64,000 nucleotides of DNA, taken from NCBI RefSeq assembly GCF_030161875.1, contig NZ_BSVA01000001.1, positions 992,001 through 1,056,000 of the forward strand. Reading direction: 5' to 3'. Below are positions 17,174 to 44,230 of the stretch, piece after piece. The stretch is from Homoserinibacter gongjuensis (lineage in GTDB: Bacteria; Actinomycetota; Actinomycetes; Actinomycetales; Microbacteriaceae). A model generated the notes under the pieces. That model did no database searches and was not told the origin of the DNA. It saw only the letters and a program-made list of their open reading frames with translations. Both the position numbers and the translations under genes were made by a program. Numbering within the stretch: position 1 is the first letter of the stretch; each line of letters begins with the position of its first letter.

Positions 17174-17264
17174 ATGTCGAAAATGCAGGAGTCGCCGACG
17201 CCGACCCCCGTACTTCAAGGCCGGCCACCGACGACACGCCCGGGTTCTCCTGCATTTTCGACAT
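17174..17264. repeat. 91-bp element with perfect 18-bp inverted ends (TCGAAAATGCAGGAG family)
   Basis: ATGTCGAAAATGCAGGAG at 17174-17191 and its exact inverse at 17247-17264 enclose 55 bp of GC-rich DNA. Two related copies are at 43527-43614 and 43795-43881. The interior sequences differ while the ends are kept, which suggests a transposable or recognised element. No coding capacity. Confidence 0.85.
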
Positions 17265-19835: not shown

Positions 19836-19906
19836 GGGGCTGTAGTTCAATGGCAGAACTTCTGCTTCCCAAGCAGACAGCGCGGGTTCGATTCCCGTCA
19901 GCCCCT
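19836..19906 (+). tRNA. tRNA-Gly (anticodon CCC)
   Basis: A 71-base cloverleaf: acceptor stem GGGGCTG/CAGCCCC, D-loop TAGTTCAATGGCAGAAC, anticodon stem TCTGC/GCAGA with loop TTCCCAA (anticodon CCC, reading GGG), and T-loop GGTTCGATTCC. The CCA end is not encoded. Confidence 0.95.
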
Positions 19907-34368: not shown

Positions 34369-34533
34369 GTGTTAGTTCGGCGCGGCGATAATCCGCCGCG
34401 CTCGGCCGATCGGCCGGCCGTGCGCGAACGCCCGGCCGATCGAGTGCCGACAGGCTCGAGCCCTCGGGGAGGGGGCGCGGCGGGTGTCGAGCGGAGCAGG
34501 AGGGAGCGCGGGGGTGTCGAGCGGAGCGGGGGT

Positions 34534-34626
34534 GCGGATTCGGTTCCCGGACGCTGGCATCGGGACTGGCGGGAGCGCATCGCCGCAGGCGATACGCGGG
34601 GGCATGCGTCCGGAAACCGAATCCGC
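34534..34626. repeat. 93-bp element with 21-bp inverted ends
   Basis: In the 314-bp gap between znuC and the E2 gene, 34534-34554 and 34606-34626 are inverted copies (20 of 21) built on GGATTCGG...CCGGACGC. The centre holds a further small hairpin (GCATCGCC/GGCGATAC). No gene is seen in the gap; 34396-34515 also carries short direct repeats of GTGTCGAGCGGAGC. Confidence 0.75.
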
Positions 34627-34653
34627 TCCCCGCGAAGCGTCGAGGGACCCCGG

Positions 34654-42064: not shown

Positions 42065-43442
42065 GTCCGCTTCCCCGCAGCCCCTGAGCCCGCTCGACGG
42101 TCGCTACCGCACCTCGGTCGAGCCGCTCGGCGAGCACCTCTCGGAGGCGGGTCTCAATCGCGCCCGCGTGCGCGTCGAGGTGGAGTGGCTGCTGTTCCTC
42201 GCGGCCCGCGGGATGTTCGGGGTGACGCCCGTCGAGGCGCAGCAGGCCGAGGCGCTGCGGGCGTGGGCCGAGCACTTCGGGCAGCCCGAGATCGATGAGC
42301 TCGCGCGCCTGGAGGCGACCACGCGTCACGACGTCAAGGCCGTCGAGTACCTCGTGCGTGCCCGACTCACCGCGCAGGGCCTCGATCACCTCGCCGAGCT
42401 CACCCACTTCGCCTGCACGAGCGAAGACATCAACAACCTCTCCTATGGCATCACACTGCGCGCCGCCGTGCAGCAGGTCTGGCTCCCGCGGTTCGACGCC
42501 GTCGTGGAGAAGCTGCGCACCCTCGCCCTCGAACAGCGCGACCAGCCGATGCTCGCCCACACCCACGGGCAGCCGGCCACCCCGACGACCTTCGGCAAGG
42601 AGCTCGCGGTGGTCGTGCACCGCCTGCAGCGCCAGCGGATGCGGATCGCCGCCGTCGAGTTCCCCGCCAAGTTCTCCGGCGCCACCGGCACCTTCTCCGC
42701 CCACCTAGTGGCTGAGCCGAGCGCCGAATGGACGTCGATCTCGCGCGAGTTCGTCACCTCGCTCGGCCTCGACTGGAACCCCCTCACGACCCAGATCGAG
42801 TCGCACGACGGCCAGGCCGAGCTCTTCGGTCGCATCGCGCACGCCAATCGCATCCTGCACAACCTGGCGACGGATGTCTGGACCTACATCTCGATGGGAT
42901 ATCTCACCCAGATCCCGCAGGCGGGGGCGACCGGCTCGTCGACCATGCCGCACAAGATCAACCCCATCCGCTTCGAGAACGCCGAGGCCAACCTCGAGCT
43001 CTCGTGCGCCCTGCTCGACTCGCTCGCGGCAACCCTCACGACGAGTCGCCTGCAGCGCGACCTCACCGACTCGACGACGCAGCGCAACATCGGCGTCGCC
43101 CTCGGACACTCGCTGCTCGCCCTCGACAACCTGCTCAAGGGCCTCGGCGAGATCGCGGTGAACCCGGACGCGCTGGCCGCCGACCTCGACGCCAACTGGG
43201 AGGTGCTCGGCGAGGCGATCCAGACCGTCATCCGCGCCGAGGTGGCCGCCGGCCGCTCGAGGATCGCCGACCCGTACGCCCTGCTCAAGGAGCTGACCCG
43301 CGGCAAGCGGGCGACCGCCTCCGACCTCGCCGACTTCATCCGCGGACTCGACATCGGCGACGCGGCGAAGGAGCGCCTGCTGGCGCTCACCCCGGCGACG
43401 TACACGGGACTCGCCTCGGAGCTCGTCGACTACCTCGGCTGA
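42061..43442 (+). CDS. purB: Adenylosuccinate lyase, frameshift at start
   Basis: About 460 residues, E. coli-type PurB of the fumarase superfamily, used twice in purine synthesis (SAICAR and adenylosuccinate cleavage). The opening LSPLDGRYR, THFACTSEDINNLSYGI, AHTHGQPATPTTFGKE and the flexible catalytic loop GSSTMPHKINPIRFENAEAN are clear. The frame breaks at 42073-42076, five codons in; one added C gives PLPPQPLSPLDGRYR. The start overlaps the phosphatase stop. Confidence 0.93.
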
Positions 43443-43526
43443 GCGCGGCGGGGCTCAGCTGCGTCGGCCGCGGCTGGGGTGACCGCCCCATCGGGCGGCA
43501 TACGCATCCACCCATCGCCTCCCGCC

Positions 43527-43614
43527 TGCGAGAAATGCAGGAGATCGGGCCAGCACGGGATGCCGGAGCCCGGATCTCAGGGGCTCGGCCTTGGCAACTC
43601 CTGCATTTCTCGCA
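43527..43614. repeat. 88-bp element with perfect 17-bp inverted ends (AGAAATGCAGGAG variant)
   Basis: TGCGAGAAATGCAGGAG and its exact inverse. Two of the three related elements lie here in the 482-bp gap after purB. Its right arm overlaps the end of the small reading frame at 43577-43723. Compensating changes in both arms relative to the 17174 element show that pairing is preserved. Confidence 0.85.
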
Positions 43615-43723
43615 CGGATGCGCCCGCCATGCGCGTGAGTTCCTCGCGCAGCTCCGGCGTTCGAGCTGTCGTCGCGGATGCGGATGCCGCGAGCGGCTCA
43701 CCGAGCGGGTCGGCGTCGAACAT
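43577..43723 (-). CDS. Possible 48-residue peptide
   Basis: A short frame MFDADPLGEPLAASASA... ending in a helical TPELREELTRMAGASVREMQEL. AGGAG lies 5 bases before the ATG, a better ribosome site than most genes here. The last third runs into the 43527-43614 element. No family recognised; may be a chance frame. Confidence 0.35.
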   Translation of the reverse strand: MFDADPLGEPLAASASATTARTPELREELTRMAGASVREMQELPRPSP

Positions 43724-43794
43724 GGGCGCTCCTGTGCCCGATGTGGTGAGTGACTACTCCCACATGTCCGGCACCGCCGCATCCGTCCGGCTAC

Positions 43795-43881
43795 GTCGAA
43801 AATGCAGGAGAATTGCCCGGCTGCGGGCAGCGGAGGCCCGGACGCGTGGGGAATGCGCGCCGAGACTCCTGCATTTTCGAC
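43795..43881. repeat. 87-bp element with perfect 16-bp inverted ends (TCGAAAATGCAGGAG family)
   Basis: GTCGAAAATGCAGGAG and its exact inverse; the arms equal those at 17174 while the interior differs. It lies about 45 bases beyond the end of the membrane protein gene that stops at 43925 on the minus strand. Confidence 0.85.
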
Positions 43882-43924
43882 ACAGCGACGAGGCCGAGGC
43901 GACGGTCAACCCGACGCCCGCGCC

Positions 43925-44230
43925 TCAGTGCTCGCGGGGCCCCGGGTGAGGATCGCGGTGCACCGAGCCTGCGGTGCCGGTGGGCGCATCCGGATCGACG
44001 GGGTCGACGCGGTCGCCGCTCTTCGGGGCGACCGCGATGAGCAGCGTCGCGATGAACACCAGCGAGGCGACGAACGCGACGCCCGCCATGATGAGCGCGA
44101 GCGCCCACTCGCGCGTGCCCATGAACACGAAGAGGCCCACGAAGACACCGAACACGCCTGCCATCACGAGCAGCTCGACCGGGCGCATGCGTTCGCGGCG
44201 CGAGGGGTGGGGGTCGTGTCGTTCATGCAC
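43925..44230 (-). CDS. Small membrane protein, unknown
   Basis: 101 residues with two membrane segments (about 19-37 and 47-66) and a Pro/Asp/His-rich tail. Overlaps the end of the HdeD-like gene by 8 bases and is probably co-transcribed with it. No known domain. Confidence 0.7.
   Translation of the reverse strand: MHERHDPHPSRRERMRPVELLVMAGVFGVFVGLFVFMGTREWALALIMAGVAFVASLVFIATLLIAVAPKSGDRVDPVDPDAPTGTAGSVHRDPHPGPREH

Follow-up and report, generated by a model that had tools for sequence, protein, structure and literature searches.

The 64-kb window analysed here, positions 992001-1056000 of contig C1 of the source genome (G000, genus Protaetiibacter, Microbacteriaceae; a single contig of 3.29 Mb), contains three copies of a dispersed site in which two inverted arms of 17 bp stand about 54 bp apart. 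This family of repeat sites is real, and it is probably functional. At a probability of roughly 0.45, we read the sites as a platform for a sequence-specific, DNA-wrapping putative protein, probably homodimeric or otherwise even-numbered, with a role on the scale of the chromosome. No published description of a paired-arm family of this kind was found in the literature searched, which was available in part.

An earlier note on this DNA described an element at 17174-17264 with perfect 18-bp inverted ends, recurring at 43795-43881 and at 43527-43614, the three copies being 91, 87 and 88 bp long with unrelated interiors; all of this was confirmed. At site 1 (17174..17264, 91 bp, with 55 nt between its 18-bp perfect ends) the family arm is the 17-bp TGTCGAAAATGCAGGAG, at 17175-17191 and 17247-17263. 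The 55-nt interior of this site, 17192..17246, is not conserved in sequence, and a patch on the forward strand, CGACACGCCCGGGTT at 17232..17246, adjoins its right arm. Site 2 (43527..43614) has 17-bp perfect ends, TGCGAGAAATGCAGGAG, at 43527-43543 and 43598-43614, around an interior of 54 nt, and site 3 (43795..43881) has 16-bp perfect arms, GTCGAAAATGCAGGAG, at 43795-43810 and 43866-43881, around an interior of 55 nt. Site 1 follows a gene that we label by eye as a transporter and precedes one that matches MarR_2 only below the cut-off; the same locus also bears a site in G001, G002, G003, G045 and G004 (= MAG 72-143). Sites 2 and 3 lie in one convergent gap, which is also site-bearing in G002, and an adenylosuccinate-lyase gene ends at 43442, ahead of site 2. 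Membership of a known riboswitch or RNA family, which the earlier note had thought worth checking, found no support: in an Rfam search of the 64-kb window, sites 1-3 were without a match at gathering score, and the sole match was a tRNA at 19836-19906.

The window also holds a second inverted repeat, at 34529-34631, with 26-base arms and a 51-nt interior. Its interior is partly conserved (TGGCA..GGG..GGCGGGAGCGC..GGGGCAT) while its arms differ, unlike the main family, and relatives of it occur near L021:6714, L115:2455 and L156:5166. An Rfam scan by e-value returned only sub-threshold, chance-like matches for this element, which resembles a structured RNA or a palindromic repeat of another kind.

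A genome-wide search for inverted pairs went clearly beyond the three copies of the window, giving 39 sites in the source genome. There, AATGCAGGAG N50-75 CTCCTGCATT has 32 exact matches, compared with none for the reversed control. With up to two mismatches allowed per 15-base arm, 78 arms were matched (one in the reversed control), of which 74 form 37 pairs, 68-70 bp from start to start; the remainder are three unpaired two-mismatch matches and an additional arm that lies 25 bp beyond one of the pairs. Among arms with at most one mismatch, 74 of 75 are paired and the last stands beside a pair; one arm carries a single mismatch in 8 of the 37 pairs. Two further copies, with outer arms of the GAGAA/CAGAA type, complete the total. 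The paired-arm sites of G000 are not due to chance.

Eight of nine genomes of the genus matched in the first search, with 1 to 36 copies each. No site was found in G007, of the same genus, and G008 has one site with the usual spacing, or two if a 46-nt interior is counted. Across the family Microbacteriaceae, 26 of 398 genomes, spread over 14 of 85 genera, have the exact ATGCAGGAG pair, and the other 372 are without the exact form; some single or coding matches among the 26 may be due to chance. A contig scan matched at least 96 stretches; among the matches listed, most of the named ones are Microbacteriaceae (Cryobacterium, Rhodoglobus, Galbitalea, Compostimonas, Pseudolysinimonas, Arenivirga and others) and a few lone ones fall elsewhere; Protaetiibacter mangrovi is among the carriers. 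Copy number runs from 0 to 39 per genome, with tandem groups, and the sites are dispensable to the host and patchily distributed.

A phage origin was rejected on five of the 18 matches in viral contigs, those with interiors of 50-58 nt. In three of these (L135, L138 and L147) a nearly identical 56-nt interior lies between ATGCAGGAG arms with matching CGCGG-like outer bases; this trio is a real inverted repeat of another kind, with outer arms not seen in the paired-arm family. Of the other two, one resembles a portion of a tRNA gene by eye and the flanks of the second are unmatched. No clear family emerged from stretches of G024, G080 and G118, which showed two isolated inverted repeats in G024 and one in G080. 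Those of G024 (L288:11973 and L292:2767) have CGCGGATCCGGA-like arms and CGACACGCC-like interior motifs near the arms, and are possibly a remote relative of the paired-arm family.

Closer inspection of the arms revealed two parts. The inner nine bases are shared, and the outer six to eight vary by lineage: for example, G000 has TGTCGAAA, G001 mostly CAGAA alongside some copies with TGTCGAAA, G002 CAGAA, G045 GTACCAA and G138 TGACCGA. The inner part itself occurs in several types. Using the pattern AT-NN-AGGA, a gap of 50-62 and TCCT-NN-AT, on loci fetched mostly around GC-type sites, we counted 239 GC/GC, 6 CA/CA, 3 GA/GA, 1 TC/TC and 2 copies of mismatched type, compared with 1, 6 and 4 matches in three control gap ranges. 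The inner type is the same on both arms in 10 of the 12 copies that are not GC/GC.

The proposal of the earlier note that both arms of a copy change together holds only in part. Arms match better within copies than between copies (0.801 vs 0.753, a difference reached in none of 3000 shuffles). At outer positions with a clear genome consensus (177 copies, 15 genomes), however, 109 deviations affect one arm, compared with 32 that affect both arms identically and 8 that affect both differently. One-arm changes outnumber matched ones, so the arms need not match perfectly, though they match above chance.

Several arm features stand apart from the general pattern. A main-family site in G005 (L104:3249-3368) has nearly perfect arms of 32 bp (GGGAGGAGACGACTCACCTCAGAAACGCAGGA), much longer than elsewhere. 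In G138 (L066, about 1938-2356) CA-type and GC-type sites alternate in an array; the CA-type interiors of this genome have CGAGTCACACGTTCATG in common, and the related CGAGTCACA / TGTGACTCG occur in the GC-type interiors of G045. In G000 the bases outside the arms tend to be G-rich read outward (C-rich on the left, G-rich on the right), with no specific complementarity between the two sides.

Between the arms, length is kept and sequence is not. In the first set, for which lengths of 44-66 nt were allowed, all 122 interiors measure 52-56 nt. With lengths of 50-58 nt allowed, 191 of 204 unique copies have 53-55 nt; this second set includes a few coding copies and a few from unrelated taxa. Interiors are unrelated or only weakly alike, even at orthologous loci. 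Their A+T content is nevertheless phased, with a best period of 10.0-10.8 bp and a G+C-rich dyad, in all three length classes taken separately (n=30, 99 and 62), where the phasing power of 2.9-3.8 compares with shuffle maxima of 0.86-1.56. Phasing of A+T at 10-11 bp is the signature expected for protein-bent DNA. In contrast, the structured-RNA option raised by the earlier note was not borne out for the interior: symmetric and all-pairs tests brought out no clearly covarying pairs (largest z 2.8) and no pairing clearly beyond base composition. Folding of the interiors is slightly better than that of mononucleotide shuffles (mean z -0.89, in 120 of the 204 copies); together with the matching of arms within copies, this means that the sites may have a hairpin role.

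A patch of the CGACACGCCCGGGTT kind lies beside one arm in 16 of the 28 G000 copies scored (of 32, the four in loci L001-L004 being left out). Polar, KOPS-like use of the CGACACGCC patch was rejected on the same 28 of 32 copies, the orientations being balanced on both replichores.

Sites inside coding DNA were found in tlyA, purL, smc and tilS, and the comparison of tlyA sequences gives the clearest evidence of selection on the site DNA itself. In six Protaetiibacter genomes the reading frame of this gene, which encodes FtsJ and S4 domains, contains both arms, 55 nt apart, around native coding sequence. The length of tlyA is unchanged relative to the arm-less genes of G007 and G005; the arms are substitutions, with no indel. 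Whichever two of the six genomes are compared, the six third codon positions of the inner arms agree completely, compared with an identity of 0.61-0.69 elsewhere (75 codons). The arm codons are rare ones for their own amino acids (TCT 1%, CCT 2%, TTT 1%, ACA 3%, AAA 4%). In the right arm, TCT, CCT, GCA, TTT and ACA each make up 1-6% of the usage of their own amino acid, and the sixth codon, TCG, is common; the arm codons are rarer than those in the rest of the stretch (Mann-Whitney P=0.014). In tlyA, both outer arms are TCGAAA-like in G000, G001 and G003 and both are CAGAA in G002 and G006, while G004 has a hybrid, so that the two sides are of like outer type in five of the six genomes. The tlyA arms of G001 and G003 are not of the commonest outer type in those genomes, so the match between tlyA and genome is imperfect. 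One inner arm base is changed in G003, and tlyA of G008 has a degenerate arm pair. The purL copy of G049, in a gene with AIRS and FGAR-AT linker domains, presumably resembles the tlyA case when set beside other PurL proteins.

The tilS copies are of a different kind. Here the element adds about 30 residues, in frame, to the N-terminal linker; it is present in G000-G003, G006, the SAL1 MAG, G045 (GA type) and G049 (TC type), and several matched arm types occupy the one position. The insertion is absent from G118, G005, G007, G008, G138, G143 and others, as judged from the 22 genomes (of 30 searched) and 5 additional loci in which tilS could be read; the empty sites in relatives that the earlier note had proposed looking for are thus seen at this gene. 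The linker of G067 contains a diverged inverted repeat. Inheritance with loss and repeated insertion into a tolerant spot both fit the pattern. In G174 (L254, upstream of ppa), the same tilS linker carries a different palindromic repeat, of the CCTGAGCCTGTCGAAGGG type.

Many sites have the same gene neighbours throughout the genus, with arms that change in place. An immediate neighbour family is shared with a G000 site at 14 of the 20 sites fetched from G001, 8 of 12 from G002, 7 of 14 from G003, 11 of 24 from G004 and 8 of 10 from G006. Set against any Protaetiibacter site, sharing is weaker in other genera: Cryobacterium ACT10 shares 4 of 14 sites, Rhodoglobus RYN_77 3 of 8, G045 2 of 10, G143 1 of 4 and the SAL1 MAG 1 of 1. 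There is no such sharing in G138 (0/7), G067 (0/7), VKM Ac-2855 (0/7), G114 (0/4), G136 (0/3), G049 (0/2) and the Salinibacterium MAG (0/2).

The sites also avoid the region of the chromosome terminus, taken as the dnaA antipode in G000, G001, G002, G138 and G143 (the site list of G002 is a lower bound beyond 1.49 Mb). In these five genomes 13 of 103 clusters fall in the ter third (P=1.3e-6) and 1 of 103 in the ter sixth (P=1.5e-7), both counts being without control for intergenic space. The Protaetiibacter sites are partly orthologous and therefore not independent in this test; when only G000, G138 and G143 are counted, 5 of 56 clusters lie in the ter third (P=2e-5) and 0 of 56 in the ter sixth (P=3.7e-5). 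The depletion is not significant in G001 by itself (3 of 17 in the ter third, P=0.13) or in G143 by itself (0 of 4, P=0.2). In G138, a dif-like match at 1.526 Mb falls within a site-free stretch at 1.04-1.92 Mb. Sites matching a presumed dif pattern were found in two of the five genomes; that of G143 lies at 1.53 Mb, compared with 1.31 Mb for the dnaA antipode. The terminus depletion could be due in part to gene turnover there.

Starting from what was observed (the anatomy, the rule of spacing, the constraint on arms, the phasing, the orthologous placement in the genus and the depletion at the terminus), we propose that two symmetry-related protein halves would each read one 17-bp arm, composed of an almost invariant inner half (ATGCAGGAG, or its variant with GA, CA or TC) and an outer half that depends on the lineage. 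The ~54 bp between the arms would be bent or wrapped on the protein and not read as sequence, so that length and phased A+T would be kept while sequence drifts. Protein and sites would co-evolve, and the arms would consequently change in place at orthologous loci. Because the sites are origin-proximal and avoid the terminus, we infer a role on the scale of the chromosome and not in local gene regulation: non-terminus DNA would be marked for nucleoid organisation or division delay, in the manner of Noc or SlmA sites. A binding platform would explain the fixed length with free sequence, the phasing, the matched arm types, the in-place change and the constraint in coding DNA, and protein binding is the best fit among the readings that the earlier note had offered.

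Like the sites of Noc in B. subtilis and SlmA in E. coli, the paired-arm sites are dozens of dispersed dyads, scarce at the terminus; passages of PMC4726725 describe both NBS and SBS as underrepresented in Ter regions. The NBS of those passages is, however, a 14-bp palindrome, in contrast to two 17-bp arms ~54 bp apart. Moreover, no second ParB-family protein tracks the sites, as judged by paralogues matching TIGR00180, and comparison of the origin regions of G045 with G118 and of G000 with G007 (~200-340 kb per genome, the left flank of G007 being mostly absent) yielded no candidate for the cognate gene. Besides these negative searches for a cognate protein, we count against the binding platform its patchy range, the varying copy number and tandem groups, the tilS insertion, the imperfect match of the tlyA arms in G001 and G003, the likeness to REPINs, the possible hairpin role and the low sharing of loci across genera. 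We file the family as dispersed dyad sites that are neither REPINs nor Noc/SlmA sites. The fuller version of the binding platform, a chromosome-marking system of Actinobacteria in which a wrapping protein with drifting arm specificity would act on 4-40 terminus-avoiding dyad sites and override codon choice in tlyA, is a rather doubtful proposition.

The alternative that survives best, though we think it unlikely, is that of mobile palindromic repeats like REPINs or BIMEs: a single-stranded hairpin unit with conserved ends and a variable spacer, which would be spread by a putative transposase, turn over slowly and need no host function. The anatomy is very close. For the GI type of Pseudomonas fluorescens SBW25, passages of PMC3116915 give a pair of invariant 16-mers whose first residues lie 71 bp apart, around a spacer that is less conserved; the paired-arm sites likewise have inverted invariant arms at a fixed spacing (68-70 bp in the 37 pairs), a variable spacer and many extragenic copies. 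A mobile element would also give the tilS insertion with its empty sites, and the tandem groups, the alternating CA and GC types of G138, the matching of arm types within copies and the absence of a G000 counterpart for about half of the fetched G003 and G004 sites all suit it. However, the REP-type tyrosine transposase named by the earlier note as something to look for (Y1/RAYT, PF01797) was found in none of the 25 genomes searched, 15 of which were chosen as site-bearing, and in 5 of 14 control genomes. It is on this result that assignment to the REPINs fails, and tlyA, with arms in native coding DNA and no indel, also fits badly. Virtually no singlet arms in G000, the many orthologous places at which arms change within the genus, the terminus depletion and the phased spacer argue against it as well.

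The REP unit, in passages of PMC3733652, has an unpaired GTAG (or CGTC) tag beside a short palindrome; by eye, the arms have no GTAG tag with a self-hairpin, and their inner end is GGAG. As for a MITE, all G000 arms except one are part of complete sites, and there is no free arm that could bound a longer element, in a test that covers the arms but not the DNA between neighbouring complete sites (e.g., 1643949 and 1645999). Relatives are empty at the tilS insertion, and tlyA has no insertion. Of the MITE-like or REP-like family suggested by the earlier note, the repeat family is real; its mobility finds no support in the arms of G000 or, for PF01797, in the 25 genomes searched.

Ordinary transcription-factor operators, serving one or a few regulons, are an improbable account of the sites. 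Dyad arms are what operators would show, and some loci recur in several genomes, such as a LacI-type regulator beside a sugar-kinase-like gene (labels by eye). Yet the neighbour genes are functionally unrelated by eye, and a site spans about 89 bp. Moreover, every gap orientation is used, with divergent gaps depleted: they hold 30 of 173 intergenic copies, compared with 143 of 493 gaps of at least 100 nt, and this count includes tilS copies miscounted as divergent because the gene caller starts tilS after the element (the division into intergenic and coding contexts is approximate).

We give poor odds to strong gyrase or topoisomerase sites, like the Mu SGS or BIME-2, in which gyrase would wrap the DNA and the arms would be the site of an accessory protein. 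Gyrase is, to our knowledge, universal, whereas the exact sites are limited to 26 of 398 genomes. Convergent gaps are enriched, with 57 of 173 intergenic copies compared with 94 of 493 gaps, which favours this account. According to passages of PMC6379681, gyrase-wrapped DNA has phased G/C content, with AT facing the protein, and BIME-2 is intergenic; the phased A+T of the paired-arm interiors is alike. The gyrase motif in those passages is, however, degenerate as well as phased and ~130 bp long, in contrast to two almost invariant 17-bp arms in a narrow, patchy range of genomes. A strong gyrase site would also be cleaved at its centre by the enzyme.

Finally, an RNA-level element, whether a bidirectional terminator or a structured RNA hairpin, is already disfavoured and very improbable: it would suit the complementary arms, their short terminal A/T runs, the many sites just after stop codons (in tandem gaps, a median of 36.5 nt after the upstream stop) and the slightly better folding, but not a 54-nt loop without clear covariation, the lack of a terminator-like site at sites 2 and 3 (43440-43930 examined), the copies within the coding DNA of four genes, the conservation of sequence rather than structure, or the excess of one-arm changes.

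If the sites are mobile instead, they would be a REPIN-like family in which no RAYT has been found. If the binding-site reading is true, they would constitute a chromosome-scale, terminus-avoiding DNA-site system in Actinobacteria, and the natural series of arm variants, partly at orthologous places, would then record a protein and dozens of its sites changing specificity together.
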